Assembly: GCF_028389875.1 (NCBI RefSeq) | Contig: NC_084702.1 | Span: forward strand, 70,467,582 to 70,531,581 | Origin: Rhea pennata | Lineage: Eukaryota > Chordata > Aves > Rheiformes > Rheidae | Direction of reading: 5' to 3' | DNA: 64,000 nt | Shown: positions 18,201 to 58,700 of the stretch, piece after piece | Layout of the letters: the number at the start of each line of letters is the position of its first letter | Position numbering within the stretch: position 1 is the stretch's first letter | The notes under the pieces: generated by a model | Database searches by the model: none | What the model was told of the DNA's origin: nothing | The model's input: only the letters and a program-made list of their open reading frames with translations | Translations under genes and position numbers: made by a program

Positions 18201-21200
18201 GATCGATCAGAGTCCTCGGTGCAGCTGCAGCCTTGAGTTTGTCCGCGGGGGCCGGGGCGAGTGGTGCGAGGCTGACGGAGCAGGGAGGCGCCGTGCTATC
18301 GCCCCATCTGCGATCCGGGCTTTGAGGCGGAGTGCGTGGAGCCGAGCAGAAGCGGGGTGCTGGGGCAGGATGTGCCAGTCCAGGCACGCGCCGCGAGCCG
18401 GGACGGCGTGCCCGGCTGCCGTGATGCCGTTCCCAGGCCTGCCCTGAGCTCGGGTGCCCCTCTGGGATGCCGTGTGCCCGTGCTGCAGGAGGGGAGAGCC
18501 GCCAGGGCGTCTCTTGAAGATCCTCATCCCGTCCGTGACTGCTGCCAGTGGAGGATCCTTGCATCCATTTTCTTTCCTCCTTTACCCTCCCGCCAACAGC
18601 GAGCAGTGCAGGCGCCTCTGCAGGGCCTGGCAGAGCTGCCGCCCTCCTCCCCAGCCGCTCCGAGAGGCGGCCTGGGAAATCGCAGCCTGTTCTGACCTTT
18701 CCTGTCATCCTGGCCTTGGTGGTGTCCGTCGTGCCGCAGCTTCTTGCCTGGCGCTTCGTGCTGGGATGGGAGCTGGCACTGCCCGCTCTGCGGTCCGCGC
18801 TGCTCACGTGGAGCCCGTGCACCTGGAGCGCGGGCGTCTTCCAAAGTTTGCACGCATCTTCCTTGCGTTTTTGCTGGGTACCCTGGCTTCGCGGGGAAGG
18901 TCTGGGAAGACTTGGCTGTGACGAGTGGTTCTTTCTCCTGAAGTCGGAGCGAGCGCCCGGCAGAGCGGGGACGCTGGGCTCCCGCGCGTGGGCTGCGCTC
19001 GCCTCGCGCGGGCGGTGCCCGGTGGGACGGGAGCGCGAGGAGCGGGTGGCGAAGCCTGCCTCGGCTCGCCGTGCCCTTCGCTTGCCGCCCCTCCGCGCGC
19101 GCGTGCGGCTGCACCCGGCGCCGGGCCGAGGAGCCCCCCCGGCGGCGCTCCCGAGCGGCAGAAGTGCTGCGGAGACGAGTCCGGAGCTGGCTGTTCCCGT
19201 CTCCGCAGCTCCCGGTGCCCCGAAGCGCCCTCCAAGCCCGCTCCGCCGTGGCCGTGCCCTCCGGCGCGGGGCCTCGTCCTGGTCCATCCTGGCGGGAGCC
19301 AGACCTCAGGCTCACCCGGAGGGACGGAGGCAGCGTCTTTGGTGCGTGCCCCGATCCTCGCTGGGGAGGGGGCGGCAGGGTCCCGCTGCCCGGGACGTCG
19401 GAGAGGGGATCAATCCGGCAGCCTGCCGCGACGGCTCGTGGCGTTTGCCGTGAGGCAGGATGTGGTTTTGGTGCTCGCCTTCCCGGTGAGGAAGGCTGCG
19501 GAGCTGCCTCCGTACGTGCTCGCTCTCGGCACCGCGGGAGGTTGCGGCCGCTCTGGAGTAGCTGGAAGAGAGCGTGTGCGGCTGCGCCGTGACGGGCGAC
19601 TTTTTTCCACTGCTGTAATGATGCTAGCGAACGGCCGAGCCCCGGGTTTCCCCGACGCCTGCGGGTCGCCTGGCCTTGTGCCGGGGCCCCCGAGCCTTTC
19701 GGCGGGAGGCAGAGTCTCCGAGGAGCGGGGCTGCCGGGTGCGCGGGGGCCCGGCGACCCGGGGGCGCTTCCCGCGGGGGAGCGCGGGCTGCCGGCCTTCC
19801 CCTTCCGCTCACGCTGCCTTTTCTCTTCTCTTTTCCTTTCCAAGGTCCCGGCCAGGATCACTGGAGCTACAAAGGTAAATACCCTGCCGTTCCTCCTGCT
19901 TTTTCCTACCCCCTGGGCCCGAGCCAGCCGTGGTTAATGATTGCCGGGCTCCGCGGCTCGCCTTTCCCCGCTGCCCGGGCACCCCGCGGCCGGCGTGACG
20001 GGTTTCCCCGGCCCCCCAGCGCTGCAGGGACGCCCCTCGCCGCCCGGCTCTCCCGGCCCGGTCCCGCGGGCTCTGCTCTCCGGGCTGCGCCCGCAGCCTC
20101 CGCGGGGAGCTTCGCCCTGCCCGGGGGCGAGCTCGCGTCCTCCGCCTGCCGGGCGCCCTCGCTGCGCCGTCTTCTCGCGCTCTTCCCCCCCGGCAGGTCC
20201 CCGCGCGCCGAGGCCCCGTCCGCGGGGGACGCGGAGCCGCTCCCGAGCTCGTTCCCTTCCCCGGCGGTCTCACGGGCGCTCCCTCCCGTCCCCAGACCGG
20301 CCGGAGTGGGCTTCGCGCTACCCGGACTGCGGGGGCGCCGTGCAGTCGCCCATCAACGTCGACACCGCCAGGGCCGGCTTCAGCCCCCAGCTGCGGCCGA
20401 TCCAGCTCTCCGGCTACAGCCTGCCCTCCAAGGAGAGACTCAAGCTGAAAAACAACGGACACACAGGTGGGCGGCCGAGGGGACGCGGCTCCCGGCACCG
20501 CGGGGCTCCTCTGAAGCTCTTCCTCTCCGGTGAGGACAGAGTCTTGCAGGCTTCGTTCACGTCACCTTCAAATCCAGAGGAGCAACGTTAGGCTCTCTGG
20601 CTGTAAGGCCCAAGTGATTTCCCAGGTGGAGTGGAGAAACCAAGAGATGGAGAGGTCACCACTGCCTTTGGGAGCTTGCTCCAGGAATTTGTTGTAATCC
20701 ACACTTAAAAAAAAAAAAATTGACCCTAGTACTCCTGATATGAGTTTGCAGCCATTAGTTCCTCTCCTGCCTTTCACTGTTAAAGGACTATTTGGTCTCT
20801 GATACGGCTCTGCCGTTAAGGTATTTACCTCTTGGCCTTTTAGCCACCATATTGGTTAAATTCCTTAAGCTGTGTTTCAGGATCCTAGTTAACTCAGGAT
20901 CTTTAGGCATTTTTATGGGGTCTTTTAGTTTGCTTCTCCAATTTTAAGACTTTTTTTGGAATGTGCCGACACAACTTACAGTATTTTAGTATCAGGCTCG
21001 CCCTGCCAGATGAGGAGAGAAACCCGCCTCGCTCCTGCTCGCCGCCCCGCAAGTGGGACCGGTGGGTCCCGCTCGCTGCCCTGCCCGCGCGGGAGCGCGT
21101 CGAACGTCTTGCGCGTGCCCACGCCTGCCAGACCCCGAGCTAGGGAAGGGTAGCAGAGACCGTGGCTCGGAAGTTCACCGAAGGGCTGATAAGACGACTC

Positions 21201-24200
21201 CTCGCCGTGGCGGCTAGCGGGACGGATTGAGCTGGTCTGCGAGCACAGCAGGTCCGAGAAGTTGGTCTCGCTGTGCGTGGTCAGAGCAGCTGCGCATTGC
21301 GCGTGCGGAGCTCTGCAATGCCTCCTGCCCTAGCGTGCCTGCATACTTAAACTGTTTGAACTCGGCGGTTGCTATTTTAAACACCCTGGCATCTGGAGTT
21401 GCTTGGTGTTCGGAAAAGCAGTCATGGCGTTTTCAGAGAGGGAAGAAATCATTTCCCGCGTGCTTGTAAGATTTCTTTATTATGGCAACTGCGAGACTTT
21501 TGTCATCATTACGAAAAGCCCAAAGTAACTAAAACGTTGCACATCTACTAAGATATTTGTATAGTTAATCCTTCTTGTACTATACAATGTATAAAGTTCG
21601 GAAATGAGAGTGACTCATATAAATAATAGAAGGAATGCCCCAATTAAGAGAGAAAAAAGAAATGTAAAAGCAGATGAACTTCCAGACAAGGAGTGATTTC
21701 TCACTTCCTGTATTTGAGTTTTGTATCTTTGAGCCCAGTGGCAGGGAACAGGGGAGGAGACGAATGATTCATCATGGCCATATTATGCTCTTAATTCTGA
21801 ATCTCTGCTCCAGCTCAGTGATGTGACCAAGAGCCATTTCACCTATAAATATGGAGGAAGGAAAAGAGTTGATTTAAAAGGAGAAAGAGAAGCTTAGAAA
21901 GCTAGGACAGCCTTTCGCGGGGTTTGGAGATGCTCCTAATATTTTGTGGCACGTCCCAATAACCCAGCTTCAAGGTTTGCCACGTTGCTGCATGAGGACT
22001 GACTTGCTAGCCAGGACTCAGACATGGCTCAAATCAGATTAAAGTAGAAGGCAAATAGAAGTATATATTGGTAGTATCTGTACAGGCAAAATCTTAACTC
22101 TGAATGATTGCAGCAGAGTAATGCTTCCATGACACCAGTTTTAGTGCTCGTCGTAGGCACATAGGTCACTTCATTTTAATGCTCCCAGCTTGTAAAGATT
22201 GTAAAGCCACTTGGCAACTACGCTGCTCTCATAGGTGTTTAACACTCCACCAATATCTTTCTCCATGAATTTTGCCCACAGTCTCTTTATCTTTGCTTGC
22301 TAAATAAATTGTTGGGTAACACCTGGCTTAGATCCTTAGATCCGGCCCCAGAGAGATCCTGCAGAGGAGCTGTTCTGCTTTTCAGCATTTTCACAGAAGC
22401 TACAAAGCTTTTTTTTTTTTTTTTTTTTCCCCCCCACAACCTGAAGCAGAAGGCTGAAGCCTGCTGCTCTGGCAGAGCTCTGTTCACTGTAGCCTCATTA
22501 AGGATTGAAAGTTTGTTTGTTTGTTGTGACCAGTTTCCACAAACCCAAGGTGACTCTTTCCCATGAGAAGTCTCCCCTGCACACCTGGGTGAAGGATCGA
22601 GCTTTGCATTTTACTGACCAGCCTCTTCCGTCTGCCCCTGCAGTTGTCCTTGAGCTGCCCGAGTCGCTGGCCATCACCGGTGGCTATGCCCAGCAGTACA
22701 GAGCTGTGCAGCTGCACCTGCACTGGGGCTCCCCGGCAGAGCCCGGCTCGGAGCACACCGTCGATGATCGCCGCTTCCCCGCGGAGGTAAGGAGCTCCTG
22801 TTCCTCCCTGCCGGCCCTCCGCAGCGCTGCCCCGGGGGCATCCTCGCGGCGCCTGCGCGGGGAAGGCGCTGGAGTGCCGTCCCACGGCCCTGCCTGAGCG
22901 CCGTAGCCATTTGGCAAGGATCTCTGCTCCCGATCGCCTCCGCAGAGCCCGAGTTTAGCGCAGGGCAGCGGCAGCACCTCAAGTAAGAGCCAGCTCCGTG
23001 ATGCAGCCTGCAGCGCCAAAGCAGCCCTCGGGGACGCTCTGCCCGTCGCTGGGCTGGGGTAGAGCTGGTCTGCAGCAGGCACGAGGTGGCCCTGCAGGAG
23101 AGGAAACAAACCTCCCCCGGCATGCCCTGAAATGAGGCCGACTCTCCCTCGGGGGCTGAGCCTGCTCCCCCGCGCTGCAGCCTGTCCGGGGCTGATGGAG
23201 CAGGAGCCGCAGCCGCCCCCGGGCGGGGGGAGCCGGCCCCTGGGCAGCCCGCTGCGGGGGCTGTTTACTGTGTACACACACTGTTTTCCTACTCCGCCGG
23301 TTCCCATCTGGTTTTATCCCTCCTTCTCTAGCACTTGTCCTCAAACCAAACCCAGCTCTGCAGTAGGTCCCTCCCCACCGCCCAGCATGGGTTTGCTGGC
23401 TGCAACTGGGGAAGTTAAGGTGGGGATCCCTTCATGCTCACCATCCTGCAGCAGCACGTTTTCTTGGCCCCACCAGTATATTTGTTCCCTACGATGGGCG
23501 CTTGGCCTGGGTATGTGTCTCTCCCAGGCCTTGCTGTGGCAGACTGGCCCTGTGGAGGCATGCCACCACCTCCTGGAGGTGCCCATGCTGCATCAGGGCT
23601 TGCACCTTTCCCTTCCAGATCCACGTGGTCCACTACAACACCAAGTATGACAACTTTGAGGCCGCCATGGTCCACCCAGATGGCCTGGCAGTGCTGGGAG
23701 CCTTCCTGCAGGTGAGACCAGTAGCTCAGCCTAGGGCAAGAGAGGTAGAAGAGTGGTGGGGAGCAGGACCGAGGTGGGCAGTCAGCCACAGCTGCAGGAC
23801 AGGCAAAGTGCCTGGTGAGAAGGATGTTGAGGGCAGGGCAGCACCGAAGGGCAGGGTGGCCCCAATGGGAAGAAGGGGGCTGACTGGTGCAGGTGCCCCA
23901 TGTTGGGAGCAATTCCTCCCTGCTGTCGCTGCCAACAGCTGCTTGTTCTGCTTTGGTCTTCATGCACTTCATCTCTGGGGGGGGTTTTGCGTTGCAGGTT
24001 GGGCCAAGGGAGAATCCATACTATCGGCAAATACTTGAGCACCTGTACGAAATCCAAGGAGAAGGTAAGGCACTGTCCCACCTCATACTTGTCTTAGGGT
24101 GCAGCAGCCAGGCAGGGAAACCCAGCAGAGGTGCACAGCAGAGAAGGGGAGCAGCATCCAGGGAAGGAGAAAGTTGCACAGCCTGTGCAGAAACAGCTTT

Positions 24201-27200
24201 CCAAGGTGCCCTCTGCAATACTTGCACGTGCTTTCTCCCAACTCTGGTGCGAACCTGCTGCTCCTGGCTTGACCGTGTTACAGCCAGGGAGCAGGTTCCC
24301 TGGGAAAATGTGGTGCAATGCTGGGCTTGGGGGTTCCCCCGGGTCAGGTCTGCTCGTGCTGTGGTGCTGTTTCTGTCTGAGGTTTTGGGCTCCAGATAGC
24401 ATTGCCCCGTGGTGGGACGGTGCTCTTTGGGTAGCCCAGCCTCCCTGCCAGGTAGCACGCTCTGCCCCAGTCCGAGGGGTTGCACTGCTCTGACTGTGGT
24501 GGTCCTTCTCCCAGGTGAAGAAGTCTTTGTGCCTGGCTTCAACGTCGCAGGGCTGCTGCCTGCCAACCTGAACCTCTACTTCCGCTACAACGGCTCTCTG
24601 ACCACCCCTCCCTGCTACCAGACAGTGACGTGGACAGTCTTCAACCAGACCGTGCAGCTGTCTCAAGACCAGGTCTGTCAGGGCACTGAGCTCATGCCAG
24701 CTCCTGCCCAGGCTCTCCCCGTAGCGGGCAGCACCCACGCTCCTGAGCCAGGCCCCAGCGGGTCTCACCTCGCTCCCGAGGCATTCCCTGCGGGCAGGGG
24801 CTCTGCTCCCCAAGGCAGGGCACCTTCTGCTCTGCTCAGGCCGCTCTCCTGCAGATCTCCGTGCTGGTGACGGCCCTGAGAGGGGACGACGACAGCCCTT
24901 TGCAGAACAATTTCCGGGAGTTGCAGAAGCTGCATGGGCGACACGTGCTGGCGAGTTTCCAGACCACCCTCACGTCAGTGAAGCAGATGCCTCCAGGTAA
25001 GGAGAACACGAATGAGCTCAGCTTACACCCAACTGTGAGGTGCAGGTTCTCCTATGGAAGTGCACTGTTTGCATGGGTTACCCTGCCTGGCAGAAGACTT
25101 GAAGCAGCCCTGGCCTCGAGGTCCCATCATCCTGCATTTTGCACACTTGTCTTGTCCTGCACGGGGAAGATGAGTTTCTAGGAGTGATTTCATCCTTGGT
25201 CATGCAGAAGCAATAGAAATGTGGGCTGAAGGATGCATGAGGTGGGCTTAAGGGCAAACAGCTAACTCATAGCAACCAGGTGCTTGAGGGCTTTTTCATC
25301 CCCAAATCTAGTAGCTAAACTTAGTTCAGCATTTATCTGCAAAGGCCTTTCTTGTGCTGGTGGTTTACAGCGATGTGTTTGTGGCTCTGTAGAAATTTCT
25401 GTTTGTCCTCAGGTGTGACTGTCGCTTTGCATCACACTCTTGCCCGTTTCTGAACTTTGAGGTCATTCGGGCTTTTCTATCCAACATCCTGTTCCTTTCT
25501 TCTTTTTGGCGTTTCATAGTTAACATCATCGTTCCCACACATTGCGTGAAGGTGACTAATAAAAATAGTTCACAAGATTGGTCCCAGGCCTTCGGGGAAA
25601 ACCTCAAGTAACCACATGCTGGCAGGCCACTTCCCCTCTGCGTTCACCTCCCGGCTCCCTGCGGCCGCCTCTCTACTGGCTGTGCGCTTTTAATCACTGT
25701 GTTCTTCAGCCTCACGAGCAGTTTCCCATGTGGCGCTGCATCAAATGCTCCACTGAAGTCTGGCGAGATAAAATCTCCTGCATTTCCTTTGTCTAGAATA
25801 TCGGTTATCAAAGAAGGATATCGGGTTAGGCTGGCATGCTCTATCTCTGGTAAACCTGCTAGACATTTTATCACATTTTCCATTTACCTCCAGGCCTTTT
25901 ATGACTTTCTTGTAGTAGCTGTTCTAAAGCCTTTAGTTGCTGAAGCTTATATGAAGGGGTGGAGTTGTCCAGCTCAACTTTTTTTCCTTATTTGCTATTT
26001 AAATCAAGCAACCTCAACTCTCACAAATCCATGAAGTCCTTGTTCCTGGAGTTGCAGTTGTGAGTGCCAGGACACTGTCCCGGTTGTCCTGGCTGAGATT
26101 TTGTGGTCCCCTGCCTTGTGTGCATTGGGTTGTTTGAGATTTGTTCCCGCTTCTGCTCTGATAACTGGCTGTCGTGTGCCTTTGCCCCGTGCACTGGACT
26201 TACTGAATGCGGAGACGAAGTGCTTGTTCAGCCTCGGGGTCGTGTCTCGCTTAGCTTTCACCTGGACCCCCTTTGCCCATGCTCGCTGATCTTTCCCGAG
26301 TCGGCAGCAGTTCAGGAGGGCGGCACTGGCCCGCTCCACGCCGGGCTGCGGGCGAACGAGGCGAGTCTGCAGCGGCGGCCGAGCCGCGGGGTCTTGCCGG
26401 ACGCTGCCCGCAGATAGTGCCACTCCGCGCGCGATGCGGGTGATGCGAACGGGCCATTATGCAGCCTTTCAACGGCAGCGATACGGCGCCGGGTAAATAT
26501 TTGCCTGGCACAGCCCCCACCCAGCATTTAGGGCCCTGCCCCGACGCTGGCCGCCGGGCCGTCCCGGCGCGGGACGCGGGGGCGGCAGCGAAGAGGCGAG
26601 CCTGCGTCGCCGTCCCGTCGTCCTCCGCGGGGCGGCCGCCCCTCGGGGGTGCTGCGGGGACGAGGACCAGCCCGGCCCTTCGCCCGGCCGGGGTCTCGCC
26701 GTGGGCCGCTGCGGTGCTGCCCTGCCCGCTCAGCTCTGCGGCCGGCCGCTTTCCGGGCACGGAGCGGCGGGGGGCTGCGCGGTGGAGGAGATGGATTTTT
26801 GGCTGGGCTCGGTGGGTCTCCACATAGGTAGTGGTTCAGCAACTTACTCCTGTTCGCTTCCTCGAGGCTTCTGGCTGTGTTTTGGGGCCGGGCAGGATGC
26901 TGTGAGCCGCTCGGGGTGCGAAGGGGGCAGCTCTTCTCCGCTCAAGGAGGGCAGGGGATTTTGCGGACCGCCCTGCTTTGCCCGCGCTACCTTTAGCCCT
27001 GCAGACTTAATGCGCCCCCAACCAAACACCTTGGGCAACCTCTTGATCGTGCTGTATCTCTTTCAGGTGGTGGCAGCTCCTCAGAGGCAGGTAGGTGAGG
27101 GCCCTGGGGCTGCTGGCCCGAAGGGGAGGGAGGAGGCAGTGTGTCCTTGGAGTGGTGCCTGCCGGGGAAAGGGGAAGTGTGGGAGCTGTTCACTGAGCTG

Positions 27201-29095: not shown

Positions 29096-29101
29096 TTTAT
29101 T
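29096..29101 (-). terminator. APH1 poly(A) signal (AATAAA on minus)
   Basis: TTTATT on plus, that is AATAAA on minus, about 0.92 kb past the APH1 stop codon. It makes 29,075-30,021 the likely 3' UTR. Confidence 0.65.
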
Positions 29102-30021: not shown

Positions 30022-30059
30022 TCAGGATCCTGGCTGGGGGCTGCCTCCACTCTGTAAAC
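30022..30059 (-). CDS. APH1 exon 7 (C-terminal tail)
   Basis: Encodes CLQSGGSPQPGS and a stop after the CCTGTAG acceptor. Homology to known APH1 tails is poor, so it rests on splice site and frame. A second acceptor 8 bases further (TTTACAG) would give an immediate TAG. Confidence 0.65.
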
Positions 30060-33000
30060 CTACAGGAACAAAGAGAGGGGTCAGTTTTCACCCAATTTCT
30101 TACCCCATCCATTTCTCGTAGGAAAGGCAACAACTCAGCTAAGGCCCCAAACTGCAGAGTTCCCTAACCCATCTGTGGTAGTGAAGAGGATCACATCCTC
30201 GCTCCAGCCTCTGACTAAGACAACCCCAACTCCCAGCACTGGCCCAGTTCCTCCCAGTAGCCCAGAAGGGACCAGCCCAGCCAGCTACCAAGTCCCCGTT
30301 ACAGAGCAGGACTTACAGAGCAGGAAACGACGCACGTTCTGGGCAGATCCCCCTGAGAGCAGGTAAGCCCAGGTGGCGGCGATAGCCATCAGCACATAGG
30401 AGGGCACCAGGCTGCCCACGTACAAGGGGTTGCAAAACGTCTGAGGAAGAGAGGCAGGATAGGGAAGGGGTGAGCAGGCGGGAGGGGGATCTCCCAAGCC
30501 CTGGCCTTTGGACACAGCCATCATCATGTCTTGCTCCTCTCTCTTCCCCTTCGCGCAGCAGTTCTGGTGGGGCGTTGCGATGGGGTGGGCACACATGGCA
30601 GCATCTCAGCTCCACAAGCCGGTGGAGTACCAGGGCAGGGAAAACCAGCTGCAGCCATTTGCCTTTGTCAAGGGCCCATCCCATGTGGGGCTGGATGCAA
30701 GTACCCAAACACCAGCAGCTTTGCTGGTGTCAAAGGCTGTTCCTCCTTGGGCATGGGGACCAACACACACCAAAGCCATCTCTGAATACAGGCCCCTGGC
30801 ACAAGCCTTTGCTCCGATACTCACTGATCCCGAAACAGCAAGGTGCATGACAACGACAGCCGCAATCTCCCACCAGCGCCGGTTCTCACAGCCGTGGAAA
30901 AAGAGGATTCCCCAGAAGGTGTGAAGGAAAATCAGCACCATGGTCATAAAGGCTGCAGGGAGCAGCAGAGAGGGCAGTCACAGGAGAGTCACCCGCCCCA
31001 ACCTGCCAGCTTAGGCTGGGTGGAGAAGAGCCAGGCCAGGAAAGAGGAGTGGTGGCTGAACTAGCAAGCACATGGGCACACCCTGAGTGTGGGATTGGGG
31101 ACAGGAGCAAGGAGGGTAGCAGAGCACAGAGAAAAGGGTTTTGCACAGACTGATGTTGCAGGTGGGAGCTCTAAGGGGCTAAAAGGGGGGTATGGAGAAT
31201 GGTAACAAAGTGCAGGATGAAGGGGAGAGGACTGAGGGCTAAGCCTATCACTCATGGGGCTGCACACCTCCATGACGGGGTGCAGTGGAGGTGGTGGACA
31301 CATGGGAGAAGGGTCAGGCCTGCCACTCACCTGAGGTCAGGAAGTAGAGCTGTGAGTCCCCATAGATCCCCACAGTGCCAGGCCCTAGTGCGTCTGCCAG
31401 GAGATTGATCATGGAGAAGGCACCGCTCATGAGCCCAAAGCCCACACCAGCCACTGCCAGGACAGAGACACTATAAGGCCTTGAGCTCATGGCTCCTGCA
31501 GCCTCCCAGGGCCACCCACGCCCAGACATCCCCCAGTCCCTCTAGACACCAGCCTGCTTCAGCATGAGAAACCTCCCTTTCCTCTTGGCAAGAGGCCCAG
31601 CGCTGCCCTATGGCCCAGGTTCACCCTGTGGGGCCACCTCTGGCTCCACATTTAGGGTGTCCCGCTCTACCTGCCACTCACCATATGCCATTTGCTGGAT
31701 GGAAATCGGGGAGCAGCCATCTTCGCTGAGGGCCACCAGCCCTTCAATAGCCTTCCTGCGGAGGGAAGAGCATGTTGGCGCACAGCACAGAACAGCACGG
31801 CACGGCTGTAGCACCAAGGACTAACTGGGCAGCGAGCCAAGATTTTATCCTGCACCAACCCACCCTCTTCATAATCTTGCAGAAGGAAGGGTGCAGGTCT
31901 CTGTCAGACACCTGACTTCATGCTCAGTGACACTAAGACTGATTGATTGATTGACTGGCAATTTGCCTATCACCAGAACACAGCAATAAACATTTATGAC
32001 TTGGCTGATGAATCTCAGCAAGGAGTGCCGACTGAGGGCATTGGGATCAGCACTCCCGTGTGTTCCCATTACTGAACTGGCAGCAGCTGTGAAAACCACC
32101 ATGGAGAGTATCTGTGGGACCTCCCTAATTGCCTGACAAACCATGCACAAAAAGCCATACATTAGCGAAGCCAAACACAAATATTTTCCACATAGGAAGA
32201 TGAATGAAAACCAACCCTACAGACCAAGTGTAGGGGAAAGCAGAGTGCTGTGGGCAAAATGGGCAGCATCCCTGCACGAGGCTGCAGAGGACAGTACTGA
32301 TACAGAGACAGGAGGTACACACCCACGAAACCGCACCCGGTCTTTGCATTTGTATTTTTAGAAGATGTCAAAAAAATAGGGAGGGTGCAGAGAAGAGCTC
32401 AAAGAGATAGAAAAACTGCTTTGGAGGAGCGACTGGGAGCCTGGCTTGACAAATTTTATCAGCTCTGGTGGGTAAGAAGAAATACCAAAAGCCTCTTCAG
32501 CCTGGAGGAAGAAAGCAGCACTAGCAACACTAGAATTTGCTGGACTTCTGCAGAATAAACACAATGCTATATATACACGTTGCAGAGAGTAATCCATGGA
32601 TCTCTGCTACCCTCTGCCTTCCTGGCGACAGCAATGCCTTGCTGTAGTGAATGGTGTGAACTCACATACCAACCACTGGCTGAACAACTGGCGCTGCTCC
32701 TACAGACACCCCTACCAGAGCCCAGACCTCTCCCAAGCCCCTTGTCCCAAGGCTATCACTCTCTCCCTGCCCTTCTCTTGTTCCCAGCTCTTCCTGTATG
32801 CTTACTCCCTGCACGGCACTATGACTAGGGAATGGTTGTGCGCAGCCAGCCGGCAAGGCAAGGATCGCAGGGATCCCGGCGCCGCCTCCCTCTGTCCAGC
32901 TCCACAGGCTGCCCTGGGCAGTGTCTGCCTGTCCCAAAGCACCGGCGCAGCACACAGCCTGCAACGCGCGCTCAGCCCCGCAGGCAGCAGGGATCCCTGC

Positions 33001-36000
33001 ACTCCCGCCCGGCAGCACCCAGGAAGGCAGAGATTTTCTGAGGCTGGGCCTAGACTTTGTCCTGGGCTGGACAGGATGCCGGGCATGGGGCAGAGGCAGT
33101 TACCGATAGCGATGCACCACCCAAGCAACAACGCCGCCGCACTGCCAGACTGACTGTCCTAGGCTCCAGCGGGCTCTCCTGCCGCAGGAGGGAGGCTGAG
33201 GTCACACCGGAGGCTCGTCACTGGGGGGCTGAGCCCAGGTGTGGCCTCTGTAATGGGGCACGGAGGATGCAGCATCAGGAGTCAGGGCTTGCTTTGGTGA
33301 GATGCTGTGCTCCAGCACGCCTTGCTGGCAGTCCTGCTCCCCCACCTCCGGCAGATTCACTGGCTGCCACTACCACCCTGGGGCTCTTTATCTCAGTCCT
33401 GGAGCTGGGCACAGAGCAGCTGGCAGGGCAGCCCTGGCTCAGGATCCAACCCAAAGGGGACGTGCCTGCAGGAGAAGCTAGGCCCTGAGGGCTGGCCTTC
33501 CCGTCACAGACATACAGGGCAGAGCCAGGAGGCTCTGGGGAAGACTCTAGGCTATTTAACACCCAAGTGCAGGTTGCTGGAACAGCTCCTGCTGGCCTTG
33601 ACACCTGCAAAGAAGCTTTCCTACTTAAGGAAGGGGCAAAGCAATTCCTAGCAGAACAGCTCATATCTCTGAGCCAGATGGGGCAGAAACTCCCATGAAA
33701 ACCCAGTCCTAAGGCTCCTCTCCCTGCCCCAGGGACACACGGCGTTGCAGGCATGGTCCTCCAACGGTGCTGCCCTGACTCCCAGCTACACAGAGCTGAC
33801 CCTGACCAGGAAGCCTGGCCTCTGACCTGATGGTGAGGGACAATCCCCAAGTCCCCTCAGAACATCCAGAATTAATGTTTCTCAGTCAAGGCTCAGGGGA
33901 AACAAACCACTCCAGCCATGTTATCACTATCCCTCAGGATAGTGATATCCCCTCAGGAGGGGAGTCATCAAAGCATCTTGAACCTGACACCCAAACCTGA
34001 AGGTGACAGAGCTGTAGGCACTGCTGTGGGTCTCTCTCCCACAGGCAACACTATTACACAATTCACTGCCACTTCCCTAGGCCTGAGCCATTTAGCTCTG
34101 ATGATAACACAGGGTGTAACACTGGCTTGCAAACAATGTAACATTGTACCAGCCAAGACACGCTCCTCGGAAGAGGCAGAGCCCTGAAATCACCTTCAGG
34201 CTGTTCCTGCTGAAGCAAGGAAAAAGACATCTCTAAGAAAAGAACAAGACTTGCTGGAACGTGGGGGTAGATCCACATCCCTTCTTCATCCACACAGCAC
34301 AGCAGTTTTCCTGTCTGGCAACCCACAGGCATTTGTCCAAGCTATGGGAGCACTCTTGAATCTAGTCAAAACAGCCTGCTGGGAAGGCAGGACAGAAAAG
34401 ATACTACACATCCTGTAACAGCTTAAAGTCACAGACTCCCTGCCCTGAATTAAAGGAGACAATGTCAGACAGTTCAGGCATCAGTTCTCCAGACCTCAGA
34501 GTGACTTTTCTCCTCTACCAGAGCTACACTCGATGTTAATGGACTGACCTAGCTTTGACACAGAGATTTTAGCTATAAGAGTCTTAGTCTCCTAAAAAAA
34601 TGCTGTCTGAGAACCTGAGCAGAGCACAGGCGCAGGATGCAGAGAGAAGCAGCAGAGGAAGGGCAATACCACCCCATCCCCAGATTCCAGGACCAGCCCA
34701 GGACTCACTGAGGCCCAGGGTAAATTCAAGCTGCCTCTCCGGGTATGGCCATGGGGCTCCAAAGGACATCCGAGCAGACAGGAAGCACTGACATCCTCTG
34801 GCCAAGCCACAGTGAGATGGCAAACCCAGAACCAGCTGGGTCACAGGAGACCCTCCCACTCATGCCAGGCTAATGCTATGTCCCTTACCTGAGCAGTTTG
34901 TAGTACAGAAACCGGAAGGCCTCCTGCAGCAGCACAGAAAACATCACCCCAAATATCAAGAGCCCCTTCTGCAATGGTTCATCATTGGGGTCACTGGCTT
35001 TTACAGCGATAAACCAGATCAGGGAGGAGAGCAGCAGTGAGACCAGCCAGAAAAAAGCCCTGAAAGAGAGAGAGAGAGGCTGCTAAACAAAGAGCATTTG
35101 CTCTGGACTTCAAGGAGGTAATTTCTGCCTCAGGCAAAAGATCTTCTTTATGTGTCCAAGCAGTGCAGACAGTGCCTGGTGGTGGGCAGACACAGCTGGT
35201 GTACATCTGCGGAGATCCCTGGCTTTGCACCATGTGAGAAGGTGTCTGGGCTGGGGATAACCACTGTCCTGTGCCACGAGGCTCCTGTCAGGTCCAATAC
35301 ATACTTTCTGCTGCAGGCCTAAGTTGAGTGGAGACTATATTCCCTGCGTGCTCCAGGCAGGACTGCTAGAAAACAGCAAGTGTCTTCCTCCACAAGGCTA
35401 GGTTTGTCCTTCCAGGAGGCCAGTCCTGCGCTGTAAGGCATGCTTTACACCAGGCAAGTACACAAAAAATTCTCGAACACAGTGCTTTGCACACAGGCCC
35501 CAGGGGCCGGACAGGTTGTACCTCGGCCTGGACAAAGACCTGGGCCGAGAGCCTGCTCCTCGCTGCCCCGACCCGGTTGTCCTGCCTCCGCGGTGCTCAG
35601 CTGTAACGCTGCCAGGCCACACAGACGCACTGACCTGGTTCCCTGCTGCCCTCTGTCCTCCCAGGGACTGCCCCGTGGCCAAGCACGGACACGAAGGACT
35701 CCCAGCATGACTGTGCTTGGCAGCACAGGCCCCAGGGAAGCAGAGGCACATGGCATGGCACCCCGCCACCTCCCCGCCTGGGTCACCAGTGAGGTCCTCA
35801 GGTGTCACCCAAACCTCAGGAACGGGCCGTGCCTCTCCTGTGCTCATGGCACAGCAGAGCCCCCACTGCAAGAGATGATGTCCCCATGGCAGGGATCATG
35901 GGCAGGAGATTCCCAGGGCCAATCCCAGCTCAGGAAGGGACACCCCAACCTAAGGGTCTTGCCCACCCGCCCAGCAGCAGGGCGTGCACCGACCTCGCGT

Positions 36001-36998
36001 CCACCACCGCACCCAGCAGCGGCACCAGCCACACGCGCAGTCGGGCTCAGAGCCATCTAGCACAGCGTGCCCACGGCCTGCGATGCACCGGTGCCCACCT
36101 GCAGCCAGCCTGCATGCCCGGTGGCTGTGCCAGCACTGGTGCCATGCCTGTGCTACCGCCACGCCAGCACCGGCACCGTCCCCACAAGGTACCAGTACCG
36201 GTGTTTTGCTTGTGCCTTTGCCGAGGTGTCTCACCTGTGTCAGTGCTGGTACCAGGCTGTGCCTGTGCCCTCTGTGACTGCCGGTACTGGTGCCACACCA
36301 GTACTGCTGCCCCTCCTGTGCTGCTACCAATGCTGACAGCAATACTAGTACTTTGCCTGCACCCAGTAGGTGCCTCCAGCACCAGCACCTCTGTCGTGCT
36401 TATACTGGCACCAGTGCTGTCCTGGTGCTCGTGCCAGCACCGTGCCCATTCTGCTAGTGGTACTAGGGCTGGGCTTGCACCCCTTGTGCTCCTGTTCTAC
36501 CTGCACCAAGACAGGCACCAGCACCACACTGATACCGGCACCAGCGCCATGCCTGTGCTGACAGTGGCACCAGTGCTGTGCCGGCCCCCTTCTGTGTTGG
36601 TACCGATACTGGCAGCAGCCCCCTGCCACGCGCAGTGGTATCGGCACCACTGCTGTGCCGGTGCTGCCAGTACCGGCACCAGCACCCCCAGCGTGGGCGC
36701 TGCCATGCCATGCCCCGGCTGGTTACCAGTACTGGCACCGGTGCCCGAGCCGCCGCCACGCCCGGGCTGGTCCCGGCCCGGGTGCCGGCGCCCCTGCGGT
36801 GGCTGTGGCCGGGGCCGGGCGGGCGGCGGCAGCGCGGCGCCGGGCCGCGGGGGCCCCGGGCGGGGCGCGGCGGGGCGGGACTGACCCGGCGATGAGGATG
36901 ATGATGCGCAGCGGGTCGCGGGCGATGGTGAAGAGGAAGAGGCCGAGCGCCGGCCCGAAGGCGATGAAGGTGCACCCGAAGAAGACGGCGAGCGTCAT
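30022..36998 (-). CDS. APH1 family gamma-secretase subunit (whole coding span, 7 exons)
   Basis: APH-1 is the seven-helix scaffold of gamma-secretase (with presenilin, nicastrin and PEN-2), which cleaves Notch and APP stubs in membranes. Exons in transcript order: 36886-36998, 34889-35059, 31682-31755, 31331-31453, 30825-30952, 30317-30440, 30022-30059. They sum to 771 bp, or 256 aa, against 247-265 in human APH1s. It starts MTLAVFFGCTFIAFGPALGL. The helix-packing GxxxG residues G122, G126 and G130 and the polar membrane histidines H171 and H197 fall at the exact human positions. The sequence mixes APH1A-like (LSEDGCSPISIQQMAY) and APH1B-like (FMTMVLIFLHTFWGILFF) stretches, and its neighbours are CA9 and TPM2. 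I therefore assign it to the family without choosing APH1A or APH1B; a third ohnolog is my preferred reading. Confidence 0.95.
30317..30440 (-). CDS. APH1 exon 6 (last helix)
   Basis: Encodes TFCNPLYVGSLVPSYVLMAI and AATWAYLLSGGSAQNVRRFL with a final L. It ends at a GTAAGT donor. Reading on past the donor gives CKSCSVTGTW and a stop at 30285-30287, an alternative 254-aa protein. Confidence 0.94.
30825..30952 (-). CDS. APH1 exon 5 (conserved histidines)
   Basis: Encodes AFMTMVLIFLHTFWGILFFH and WWEIAAVVVMHLAVSGS, with H171 and H197. 128 bp, ending in phase 0. Confidence 0.96.
31331..31453 (-). CDS. APH1 exon 4 (GxxxG helix)
   Basis: Encodes VAGVGFGLMSGAFSMINLLA and DALGPGTVGIYGDSQLYFLT. It contains the tandem GxxxGxxxG of helix 4 needed for complex assembly. 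Confidence 0.96.
31682..31755 (-). CDS. APH1 exon 3
   Basis: Encodes KAIEGLVALSEDGCSPISIQ and QMAY, the loop before helix 4. The SEDGxSPIS string is shared with APH1A and absent from human APH1B. Confidence 0.95.
34889..35059 (-). CDS. APH1 exon 2
   Basis: Encodes AFFWLVSLLLSSLIWFIAVK and KGLLIFGVMFSVLLQEAFRF with YYKLLR, membrane helices 2 and 3. 171 bp. Confidence 0.96.
36080..36720. repeat. Irregular low-complexity array in APH1 intron 1
   Basis: Built from repeated GGTACCAGTGCC / CAGCACCGGCACC-type dodecamers in mixed spacing, including short inverted copies. About 640 bp, bounded by the CpG island at the promoter side. Confidence 0.7.
36886..36998 (-). CDS. APH1 exon 1
   Basis: Encodes MTLAVFFGCTFIAFGPALGL and FTIARDPLRIIILIAG, the first membrane helix. 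It ends two bases into a codon before a GTCAGT donor. Confidence 0.95.
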
Positions 36999-37119
36999 GG
37001 CGCCGCCGCGGCCCGGAGCGGCCCGGACGGGACGGGACGGGACGGGACCGCTCCGCTCCGCTCGGCCCGGCCCGGCCCGGCCCGGCCCCGCCGCGCCCGC
37101 CGCCCTTCCGGGACCGCCG

Positions 37120-37127
37120 TGACGTCA
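37120..37127. promoter_or_regulatory. Palindromic CRE (TGACGTCA)
   Basis: Full 8-bp cAMP-response element, 122 bases upstream of the APH1 start codon, in a CpG island where such sites are usually functional for CREB/ATF. Confidence 0.6.
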
Positions 37128-37173
37128 GCCCGCCGCCGCATGCGCGCTGCGCCGCCGCCGGAAGCGCAGCGCC

Positions 37174-37249
37174 GGGGGCGTGGCCAGGCGGCGGGGGCGT
37201 GGCCAGGCGGCGGGGGCGTGGCCAGGCGGCGGGGGCGTGGCCAGGCGGC
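37174..37249. promoter_or_regulatory. Four exact tandem 19-bp GC/KLF boxes
   Basis: GGGGGCGTGGCCAGGCGGC is repeated four times head to tail with no mismatch (37174, 37193, 37212, 37231). Each unit holds GGGGCGTGG, a good Sp/KLF site. The 19-bp period puts sites nearly two helical turns apart. Confidence 0.8.
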
Positions 37250-37299
37250 CGCATCGCCGGGGCGGGCGGGGAGCGCCGCCGGGGAAGCGCCGCCGGGGC

Positions 37300-38500
37300 C
37301 GCGGCGGGGCGGGAGCGCGGGCGGTCGGGCTTTCCGCGGCCCGGAAGGAGGCAGCGCCCTGTAAAACCGCCGCGGGGCAGCGAGCGGCTCCAAACCCCCC
37401 CGGGCTGCCCGGGGCCCCGGGAGGGGAGACGTGCCGTGGGGTGGCCGAGCACCCTGCGCGCCGCGGGAGCGCCGGGATGCGGTGTGCAGAGCCGCGGAGC
37501 AGAGCCGGGCCTGGGCGGGGAGCGGAGTGCGGCCGCACCTGGGCAGGAAGGAGGTGGGAAGGTCTCACCCCGCGCCTTTCCTGAGCTGCGAGCGGTGCAG
37601 CGAGTGAAGGAAAGCGGATGGCCGGAGCGATCGCTGCCAGCCGCCCGGCTCGCCCGGGGGTCGGCGTGACTCCTGCCGGTGTTTCCCGGCGGCTGGAGGC
37701 TCTGCTTGTAGAGGGACATCCGCCTGCTGGCCCGGGACACCGGCGCTCGGCGCTGGTCGTGGAGGGGCCCCAACCAGAGGGCAGAACGGGATCGGGTCTC
37801 CCGGGCATCTCCAGGGGAGCCGCCTCCCTTTCTCGGTGTCAGCGAGGAGACACATCCTGTCACTCTTTATCTAAGGGAAAAAGGAACAGACCGGGAGGAA
37901 ACTCCCTGAGCGCTTCAGGGACGCCTGCTGTACTACCGTCTGCTAGTTTAGATTAGGCAGCTGTCCCCGAGGGGGGGTTCAGTGCCTGGCAATGGGAAAT
38001 ACAACCAGTTTGCAGGGTAAGCAGCTAACTGCAGACCTGAAGACACTGACAAGCAATAGCACGCGCACGTGTGTGGACGCACACCGGTTTACGTGCTTAG
38101 ACTGTGACTTCAGCCTGAACCGTGCAGCAGGCTCCACAGAGAGGTCAGTGCCTGCATGGCTTCCCAAGTGCCAGGCAGGTAACGTGGCGGTTGTGGTAGG
38201 GGACACACTAGTGAGGTATCAGTGTGCACCTGGTCGAAGGGTGGTCAGTTTGGACTTTGAGTTTCCTTTCTTAAGGCTGTGCATCACGCATGTGCCAAGG
38301 AAGAGCTGGAAATGTGGGAACGCAGCCCAAACTACGCACATCATCACTCCCAGCCCTCCAAGGCCGAGGTGGGCATCCAACTGCACTACCCACCCCATAG
38401 CAAGGTCCAGAGCCTCCGTGAGATCAAGGCAGGGAGATTCCCCCCCTCCCCAAACCCACATCTCCTAGTGTCCATACACACCCACAAGGACTAAGCATAC
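37300..38500. other. Spacer between APH1 promoter and TPM2 3' end
   Basis: The GC-rich half (to about 37,860) is the outer part of the CpG island; the remainder is ordinary sequence. No coding exon recognised. Confidence 0.55.
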
Positions 38501-38728: not shown

Positions 38729-51692
<12,964 letters not shown>

Positions 51693-51834: not shown

Positions 51835-52665
51835 CCCCCGGCCCCCGGCCCCAGCGGGCTGCGCTGGGGACACCTCGGGGGCGCTGCGCTGGGGGCGCCT
51901 CGGTGACATGGTGCTGGGGTCTCCTCGGGGGCGCTGCGCTGAGGACACCTCGGTGACATGGTGCTGGGGTCTCCTCGGGGGCGCTGTGCTGAGGTCTCCT
52001 CTGGGGCGCTGTGCTGGGGACACCTCGGTGACATGGTGCTGGGGTCTCCTCGGGGGCGCTGTGCTGGGGACACCTCGGGGGCGCTGTGCTGGGGACACCT
52101 CGGTGACATGATGCTGGGGTCTCCTCGGGGGCGCTGCGCTGGGGACACCTCGGTGACATGGTGCTGGGGACACCTCGGGGGCGCTGCGCTGGGGAAACCT
52201 TGGTGACATGGTGCTGGGGACCCGTCAGTGGGGCTGTGCTGGGGACATCTCGGGGGTGCTGCGCTAGGGACACCTTGGTTACATGGTCCTGGGGACCCCT
52301 CAGTGGGGCTGCACTGGGGACACCTTGGTGGCATGGTGCTGGGGACACCTTGGTGGCACTCTCCTGGGGACACTTTGGGGGCGCTGCGCTGCAGACACCT
52401 CGGGGGCATGGCACTGCAGACACCTCGGAGGGGCTGCTCTGGGGACACCTTGGTGGTATGGTGCTGCGGACACCCCGCCGGCTCTGAGTGAAGGGCATTC
52501 CCGTGGCACTGTGCTGGGGACAGCTCGGTGGCACCGCACTAGGGCCACCCTAGTGACACTGGGTTAAGGGCACGGTGGTGGCACTGCACTAGGGCTTACC
52601 CCGGTGACACCACCTCGGTGGCACCGCACTAGGGGCACCCCGGTGACCGTGGGCTAGGGGCAGCT
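51835..52665. repeat. Minisatellite upstream of TPM2 exon 1a
   Basis: Unit of about 25 bp, GCGCTGGGGACACCTCGGGG plus GCGCT, alternating with a variant GGTGACATGGTGCTGGGGTC. About 30 copies in 0.8 kb. Diverged copies continue toward 52,665. Confidence 0.9.
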
Positions 52666-55702: not shown

Positions 55703-58700
55703 CTGCCGGCAAGAACACAGTAAGAGCCCGTGGGATCGTAGCTCCCTCCACCTACTGACTAGGGACAGAGCCTCTGCTGGAGCAATGTGCTATGGGGGCA
55801 CGGGCAGGTTCCTGGGGCATCAACATACTGCGCTGCTGTTTGCTAGGCTCCCTTACTGCTGCACAGTCCTCTGCTTCCTCACATCGCAGCCACAGCTTCC
55901 CTGAGCTGGCGTCTTGGGCAGGAGAGCTGCTGTTTCTCCAAGCTGTGGCAGAACCACCACGGTAGGACTGTGGTGCTTGGGGGATAAGGGAGAGTAGCCC
56001 AACACCCGCGGCATGTGCAGGTCTCAGCTGTACGCTCACGGCTTGAGCCCGATCACATCTAGGAGACAGAGCTGGGACCTGTGTCACCCTATGCTGGGCA
56101 GTTCTCAGCTCTTGCCCTGTGCTCTGTCCCACACACGTCCTGGCTGCAGGGATGGTGCTGATATGATCAGCATTACAAGCCTGGGACTGTGGTACAAGCG
56201 TGTTCACTAGTGGTGCCTGCTACTACAAGCAGTAGGAGGACTGTAAATCCTCGCCACTTAACTGGTGGTGGGTAGGATGGGTGCAATTTCCCTGCCTGCA
56301 GCATTTTTTGAGGCTCTCTGGAGAGGTGCCCTGTGTTGCTGGATCATAGGACATATTCTGGCTGTGCTGGAAGCCAAAGCTGACTCCGTCCCACACAGAA
56401 CAGCCCCGCTCCTCACCTGTGCAATTCCCCCGACCATCTTCTCCTTCACAACCACAGTCTCATCGTGGTCCTGGAAGGCAGCCGCTTTCTGGGCTGCCTT
56501 CACCAGATTGTCTGACGCCCTCTTCACAGCATTGCCAGCAGCCTGGAGCGGGCAAGAGGGAGAAGCAGCAGTGTAAGTCCCAGCCCGCTGAGCACAGCCT
56601 CACTCCGGGGCAAGACGCTCTCTTAGCGGCCATCCTCTCCTGTCGCTTCCAGGCACGATGAAGCCAGGGACACCGCAGGGGCACCCCAGGGTGCAGACCT
56701 GCTGAGGAGGCATCAGGGCCAGAGGAAAGATCCGGCCGTGGAGCACAAAGGAAAGAGGGGAGGGAGCAGGACGGAGACGAGGCTCCGGTACGTGGGGTAG
56801 CAAGGCATCAGCGGGCCTCCGGGAGCGCAGGCGAGAAGGGAGGCTGCGGGCAGGGGGAAGGCACTGGGAACAGCGCTGTGGGTTGCCACGTGCTCAGGGA
56901 GGCTTGGGGCCCGCCACTGCACAAGGACTGGATGCGGACTGAGTCAGAAAGCACGAGCGTGCCCAAGCTCGGGGAGCCCTGCCTGGGATGGGGGCCAGGT
57001 GGCGTGGGAGCCCTGTCCCCCGACTGGGATGGGCGCCAGGTGGAGCAGGAGCCCAGGAACTCCGCTTTCCTCCAGGCCAGGACGGGCCAGACCCGTGGGC
57101 GGGCCGAGCTGCCAGGCAGGAGCGGCGGCCGGCGCGCCAGGAGCTGCACGCAGATTCCTTTACATGGTTAGCTGCGCGTCGCCTCAGCAACCCGCTCATG
57201 ACCATTTCAGGCACTGCTGCTCCCAGCTGGGCTCCCGGGCCAGGGGGAGTCCTGTCCCAGGCCGGGCAGACACGGAGTCCCTTGCTCCAGTCCCATCTGA
57301 ACAGCGGGGCAGGGACTTTGGAGGGGTCTGGCTGACCCTCCCCAATCTTTGGCCCCAAGGAGCCACCCGTGCAGGCATTAACCCCTTGTGTGACATGGCC
57401 CTTGAGGGTTAACCCCCGAATGTCAGAGCAAGGCACTACAAAACATGGCCCAAACATTACCCTCCCGAATGCTAGGGATCTAGTGCACACATTTCAATCA
57501 TTCCCACGCCAGGCGATTAGGTCTGAATGCCTCCAGGCTCAGTAACCCAGCCCCGGAGTACAGCAGCCCAGGATTACATGTGTGCCGAGCACACAGCACA
57601 CAGTTAACCAGTGAAATCCAAGCCAGCTGGAGCTTATGCCCCAGTAACCACCACTGTCCTGTGCTAGGCGCCAGCCTCCAAGGACTTTACGGTTACCCTA
57701 CTTTCCCCTGTCCCTCCCGTGACAGGCCCAGTCACCAAGCCGGGGAGGTGGGGGCCCACAGTGCCCAAACATGCCCTTGATTTGGTGCACAGGAGCACTG
57801 ACGTGGCTAGTAGCAGTCATTTGTGGCAAGATACACAGGCCTGGCTGGGGCAGCACGCCAGGCCTGGCACGCTGCACCCACCTCAGGGCAGGAGTAGGCT
57901 CACAGCAGGCCACGGGCATTCCCTTAGAGCGCAGGGAGCAGCGGCGGCTGACGCACACTCACCTGAGCTGCCCGAGCCAGCTCTGCTCAACCTCTGCTTC
58001 CAGCAGGGAGCCCTCACGGTGCAGGCCCTGAGAAAGCCTCCAACGATGGCACGCAGGCAGGGAGCGGGAGCCTTGGGGAGACGCCTCTGCTCAAATACCC
58101 TTTTGCTGTGCTGCTGTCCTGTGCTAAGCTCCCTGCATGCTCTGATTTCACTTCTACCCACCCCCTGAGCACTCAGTTCGATGTTCAGGAGCTGGAAGGA
58201 GCCAATTAGTGCAGGAGGTGCACAGAGGCAGACTGGGACTCACCTGGAGCCTCTTCATGGCCTCTGAATCATGGTCAGCCTTCACCTTGCAGGCCACCAG
58301 GAGCTGCGCTGTGGAGGCAGCCACCTGCTTAGCTGACGAGATGAGTTTCTCTTCACTAGCATGGCCTTGCACTGCTGCATTGGCGGCTTCACACAGATTG
58401 TTGGTGGCAGCAGCCACCATGCGTGCCTGGAGGTAGAGAGGGTGTTAGAGAGGATGTGGGAGCCTCCTTGGGAGAGCATTTGCCCAGGGAGGTAGGGGAG
58501 CATGGGATGGAGACCAGCAGCTCCCACACTGCGATGCAGCTGGTGGAAGCAGAAGCAGGAAATGGGCTGCTTATTCCACAGAGGAGAAGCACAAGGGCAC
58601 AGCGTCCCCATGGTTGCAGCAGGACCTGCGAGAAGGATCTTCCCCAGCTCACAGACACTACATGCGTCCTTAATACTCACGGCTGAAATGAGTCCCTGGG

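Follow-up and report, generated by a model that had tools for sequence, protein, structure and literature searches.

A 64,000-nucleotide stretch of the Rhea pennata genome (C61:70467582-70531581, hereafter the window) was found to hold an APH1 gene between a carbonic anhydrase gene, CA9, and a tropomyosin gene, here called TPM2. APH1 is the scaffold of gamma-secretase, a membrane protease. From gene order and sequence comparison, it is highly probable that this gene is an intact third APH1, an ohnolog of APH1A and APH1B from the two rounds of vertebrate genome duplication (2R), which was kept while APH1B decayed and which encodes an ordinary APH1 scaffold.

Structure of the window gene

The gene is read on the minus strand from an ATG at 36998 to a TGA at 30022, in seven frame-consistent exons of 113, 171, 74, 123, 128, 124 and 38 nt. 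Joined, they form a coding sequence of 771 nt including the TGA, for a protein of 256 amino acids with no internal stop, and all six introns are GT-AG. The preliminary description of this DNA, which had reported a complete seven-exon APH1 at 30022-36998 between CA9 and TPM2, proved right on the flanks and, to the base, on the coding ends. Exon 1 (36886-36998) starts in the Kozak context gcggcgccATGa; exon 2 (34889-35059) matches the Pfam family PF06105; exon 3 (31682-31755) holds an APH1A-like loop between transmembrane segments (TM) 3 and 4; exon 4 (31331-31453) keeps G122, G126 and G130, and exon 5 (30825-30952) keeps H171 and H197; exon 6 (30317-30440) has the lowest identity to APH1A and APH1B; exon 7 (30022-30059) encodes a short C-terminus of its own, with the TGA at 30022-30024. 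The 5′ end lies in a CpG-island promoter region (36750-37499; G+C 0.80-0.88, CpG observed/expected 1.04-1.10), and an AATAAA about 0.9 kb past the stop (29096-29101, minus strand) is a candidate poly(A) signal. Inside the island, just upstream of the start, a G+C-rich 19-base unit is repeated in tandem (37169-37249, 4.3 copies, 98% matches).

The PF06105 match at this locus, with E down to 6.3e-14, is above the curated cut-off. A phmmer search with the predicted protein covered 177,635 distinct PDB sequences, of which just two matched at E ≤ 0.001: human APH-1A (E 5.8e-102, 343.6 bits) and human APH-1B (E 8.8e-88, 297.1 bits). By this profile match and its full-length similarity to solved APH-1, the window gene belongs to the APH1 family.

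Exons 1-6 have the same lengths as those of the APH1A gene found elsewhere in this genome, on contig C41 (see below). Between the two genes, nonsynonymous divergence (dN, NG86 method) is 0.30 and synonymous divergence (dS) 1.18, and codon position 3 is the least alike (0.49 vs 0.71 and 0.79). Since dS is near saturation, the ratio of about 0.26 is evidence of purifying selection only for the history of the two genes taken together. Could the gene be a recent or non-expressed pseudogene? Its exon 6 is diverged, and the question was judged from sequence alone. Against this stand the intact frame over seven exons, the six canonical introns, the CpG-island promoter, the Kozak start and the poly(A) signal, together with the dN/dS ratio, for all that dS is close to saturation, and we regard a pseudogene as very improbable.

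APH1 loci elsewhere in the genome

Three queries, PF06105, human APH1B and the window protein, were run against the whole 1.27 Gb assembly. Each of them located APH1 exons at three loci, namely the window, C41 and C10; human APH1B also gave a chance-level match on C2 (E 0.99).

On C41 lies a complete, intact seven-exon APH1A (2199740-2204370, plus strand), which shares 196 of 242 residues with human APH1A. A CA14-like gene on the minus strand (2206308-2205965) converges with it; to the question raised in the preliminary description, whether the genome also carries APH1A beside CA14, the answer is an APH1A next to a CA14-like gene. The CA14-like gene is present as catalytic-domain pieces only, with no match over the zinc-binding-histidine exons or the SLTTPP stretch, and it may be decayed or very diverged. 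Within C41:2188520-2215054, the pair formed by APH1A and the CA14-like gene seems inverted with respect to ANP32E and MRPS21, relative to the human order.

On C10, an APH1 exon 4 was found on the plus strand at 19960304, between RAB8B and CA12, the interval in which human APH1B lies. Thirty of its 41 residues are identical to human APH1B, compared to 24 for human APH1A, 24 for the C41 protein and 22 for the window protein. Its frame is open, but its splice acceptor AG has become CG. In a per-exon control over the RAB8B-CA12 interval, exon 4 outscored every one of 100 shuffles; exons 1, 2, 3, 5 and 6 stayed at the level of shuffled sequence, their scores being reached by 31-64 of the 100. Likewise, exon 4 alone was found on C10 in the whole-genome search, and human APH1B compared with 80 kb of this contig gave, beyond exon 4, chance-level matches only (the next, E 0.064, in a RAB8B exon). 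A weak match of three queries (E 1.1-5.8) pointed to a 159-nt stretch 1.3 kb upstream of exon 4, bounded by AG and GT (C10:19958822-19958980). Although picked by eye and after the fact, it shares 94 and 98 bases with exon 2 of the C41 and window genes, each above 500 of 500 shuffles. This is probably a much diverged APH1B exon 2, and nothing was rested on it. In this bird, APH1B is apparently a unitary pseudogene (C10:19958822-19960426): the place beside CA12, at which the preliminary description proposed to look for APH1B, is taken by decayed APH1B-like sequence.

Gene order

The order on C10 is TLN2 (plus strand, 19786244), TPM1 (plus, 19872782-19880235), RAB8B (plus), the APH1B exon (plus) and CA12 (minus, 19986887-19980130). 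Read on its minus strand, the window presents TLN1, TPM2 and APH1 all pointing the same way, with CA9 pointing against them, so that order and orientation of TLN, TPM, APH1 and CA are identical at the two loci. C41 has TPM3 (plus), 1.67 Mb off, then ANP32E (minus), APH1A (plus), the CA14-like gene (minus) and MRPS21 (plus). The names TPM1-3 and TLN1-2 are given by place, and ANP32E, MRPS21 and RAB8B were located by sequence query. The window therefore has TLN, TPM and CA in common with C10, and a CA and a distant TPM with C41; APH1 and CA are convergent at all three loci. The human APH1A/CA14 and APH1B/CA12 pairs are convergent as well, and the human CA9-TPM2 interval is not known to hold an APH1. 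By this shared order the window gene belongs to a third copy of an ancient block, the APH1A and APH1B positions being separately occupied. Its status as a third ohnolog accordingly comes from gene order, not from the tree described below.

The carbonic anhydrase next to the window gene has human CA9 as its best PDB match (179.8 bits, vs 147.5 for CA12 and 145.7 for CA14), so that CA9 and not CA14 flanks the gene. Neither of the outcomes named in the preliminary description as refuting was seen, since the tree also keeps the window gene out of APH1A. With CA9 at its side, a position outside the APH1A clade and an APH1A present on C41, the window gene does not have the attributes of an APH1A orthologue. 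Nor is it in the APH1B position: between RAB8B and CA12 on C10 there is a different APH1 exon, whose nearest match is human APH1B.

Conserved residues and presenilin contacts

At 109 of the 129 positions identical in human APH1A, human APH1B and the C41 protein, the window protein has the same residue. Among residues with recognised roles in APH1, it keeps G122, G126 and G130 of the GxxxG motif in TM4, as well as H171 and H197. Exon 6, which should cover the TM6-TM7 end, is the most diverged, with 43% identity to either APH1A and 33% to APH1B, the two human proteins being 45% identical there. In PMC11130327, the TM6-TM7 end is tied to presenilin contacts, and differences between APH1A and APH1B are described at the contact with presenilin-1 (PSEN1). 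The same source states that gamma-secretases of the two types yield amyloid-beta of different lengths, and seeks the cause in a few presenilin-contact regions. Its contact positions were assigned APH1A numbers by matching the residue letters.

At all four transmembrane PSEN1-contact positions (I32, I36, L51 and M128) the window protein is APH1B-like, L51 being also present in the C41 APH1A. The eight pocket positions are mixed: APH1A-like at 156, 159 and 207, APH1B-like at 69, 163 and 200, and neither at 62 and 137. The cytosolic TM3-TM4 loop is APH1A-like and nearly identical to that of APH1A. Of the 66 sites at which both APH1A proteins agree and human APH1B differs, 30 carry the A residue in the window protein, 14 the B residue and 22 a residue of its own. 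A protein blending A-like and B-like stretches, as the preliminary description put it, is indeed what we see. Several of the B-like states may be ancestral, because the fly protein, in the provisional sequence used, has I32, I36, L51, K69 and V200. From these comparisons, the window protein would be a functional scaffold, tuned in a way of its own.

Relationships of the three genes

Trees were built with four proteins (window, C41, human APH1A and human APH1B), and the version with an outgroup adds a provisional fly sequence. Pattern searches returned 108 stretches in the genome_contigs collection and 61 in viral_contigs, none confirmed as relatives, and because of this the tree is limited to four proteins and that one outgroup and leaves the three branches unordered. 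In the four-protein tree, human APH1A and the C41 protein are grouped at 97/97, and placing the window protein with either of them is rejected by the approximately unbiased (AU) test (p 0.0085 and 0.011). Over 242 columns, the window protein is identical to human APH1A at 155 (64%), to the C41 protein at 148 (61%) and to human APH1B at 138 (57%); the corresponding counts are 143 between the two human proteins and 140 between C41 and human APH1B. Such distances are consistent with three branches that are about equally old. The split of the window gene from APH1A looks older than that of birds and mammals, because the window protein shares 148-155 positions with the APH1A proteins and the human-bird APH1A pair shares 196.

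These data bear on a second explanation, namely that APH1A was duplicated in birds or sauropsids only and the duplicate came to lie beside CA9 by chance. Human APH1A is the best PDB match of the window protein, as a duplicate of this kind would have it. Yet the clade with the C41 APH1A is precisely the one rejected at p 0.0085, and the apparent age of the split argues in the same direction. The gene is not a retrocopy, because its introns are kept, and a chance landing in an order and orientation like those of TLN2, TPM1, APH1B and CA12 is itself unlikely. We consider such a duplicate most improbable.

Several results weigh against the assignment to a third ohnolog. With the provisional fly outgroup, neither the grouping of the window protein with human APH1B, a single B sequence (p 0.39), nor that with both APH1A proteins (p 0.24) is rejected, and the best outgroup tree, where the window protein falls outside both A and B, has a support of 57/55. 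The comparison set consists of the loci of one species and two human proteins, and the genome search scores the best candidates only, so that a further weak APH1 copy is possible. The block is loose on C41, where 1.67 Mb separate TPM3 from APH1A, where no talin match was obtained in the Pfam search, and where the CA14 call is narrow (39.0 bits vs 38.7 for CA12). Finally, positions 222, 224, 225, 229, 232 and 237, encoded by exon 6, are changed in the window protein though invariant in the other three.

The p value of 0.39 and the four B-like contact positions would allow the window gene to be the true APH1B orthologue, moved beside CA9, the C10 remains being those of another lost APH1. However, the C10 exon is at the place of human APH1B and closer to human APH1B than to the window protein (30 vs 22 of 41), A states outnumber B states at the diagnostic sites, and the provisional fly protein shares three of these four contact states (32, 36 and 51), with L51 in the C41 APH1A, so that they may be ancestral. 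A displaced APH1B therefore seems unlikely. Regarding the separate third branch proposed in the preliminary description, exclusion from APH1A and the third copy of the block stand; separation from APH1B was not obtained in the tree.

Other features of the window

The CA9 catalytic-domain exons (20268-24693, plus strand) are transcribed towards APH1. The tropomyosin exons (41578-51608, minus strand) were confirmed as such by PDB matches, among which alpha-1 chains come best and beta chains appear only as fragments; TPM2 and TPM1 are not separable in this way, and the name TPM2 is given by place. A talin-type I/LWEQ exon (58244-58429, minus strand), found in the Pfam search, is called TLN1 by its place; a talin N-terminal query had no match in the window. 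RMRP, a neighbour of CA9 in humans, was not seen: with gathering scores as the cut-off, Rfam gave 0 matches in the window. Minisatellites lie inside TPM2 (46909-47214) and just upstream of it (51858-52549). Elsewhere in the genome, large beta-keratin arrays with many equal-scoring copies were noticed on C2, C10, C26 and C41 (all 150 scored, of 178 candidates, match), as fits a bird.

Discussion

Most probably, then, this bird has an intact third APH1. We infer its 2R age, its distribution, its loss in mammals, its expression, its entry into a complex and its functional tuning from the comparisons above. An ancestral TLN-TPM-APH1-CA block would have given rise, in the early vertebrate genome duplications, to a TLN1-TPM2-APH1-CA9 copy, and the ohnolog set would comprise APH1A (CA14 block), APH1B (CA12 block) and the third APH1 (CA9 block). 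This bird would have kept the third copy and APH1A and lost APH1B, humans having kept APH1A and APH1B. The predicted product is a multi-pass membrane scaffold that would assemble with nicastrin, presenilin and PEN-2, and tune cleavage via its presenilin contacts.

With vertebrate APH1A (human and C41), the third gene shares its family, a convergent CA neighbour, the TM3-TM4 loop and, for C41, exon 1-6 lengths; it differs by 61-64% identity, a place outside the clade, another paralogous block and a different short C-terminus. It has the four transmembrane PSEN1-contact states of human APH1B and the gene layout of the C10 relic, but only 57% identity to human APH1B, an A-like loop, and CA9 as a neighbour while the CA12 position holds separate remains. 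Rodent Aph1c is a third APH1 gene too, described in PMC5783875 as a duplicate of Aph1b. Judged by that description, the window gene seems to represent a different and older branch.

Among the open-access papers listed by the searches, neither an APH1 next to CA9 nor the loss of APH1B from birds is mentioned in a title or abstract beginning. By the search count, the term aph1b has 0 occurrences in two surveys of genes missing in birds (PMC4290089, PMC12954441), and quail APH1A is named without a locus in passages of PMC6438477. APH1 copy number in birds is not treated in the available parts of PMC11594159, PMC2770060 and PMC5526973. Automatic models of the third gene may already be in gene databases.

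C61 (82.5 Mb) carries a DM-domain cluster at 8.25-8.35 Mb, with three of the five matches, and from this and general bird biology we infer that C61 is the avian Z. The evidence leans, if not strongly, towards mammals and birds having each retained another second APH1 once the vertebrate genome had been duplicated, APH1B in mammals and a Z-linked third ohnolog in birds. In that case there would be two forms of gamma-secretase in birds, one with APH1A and one with the third scaffold; the surface that the latter presents to presenilin would be distinctive, and its gene dose would depend on sex. A natural third scaffold mixing A-like and B-like contact states lets the roles of these positions be asked one by one. 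The two APH1 genes of humans would, on this view, be one lineage's remainder of a larger set, and conclusions drawn on APH1B may not transfer to bird models.

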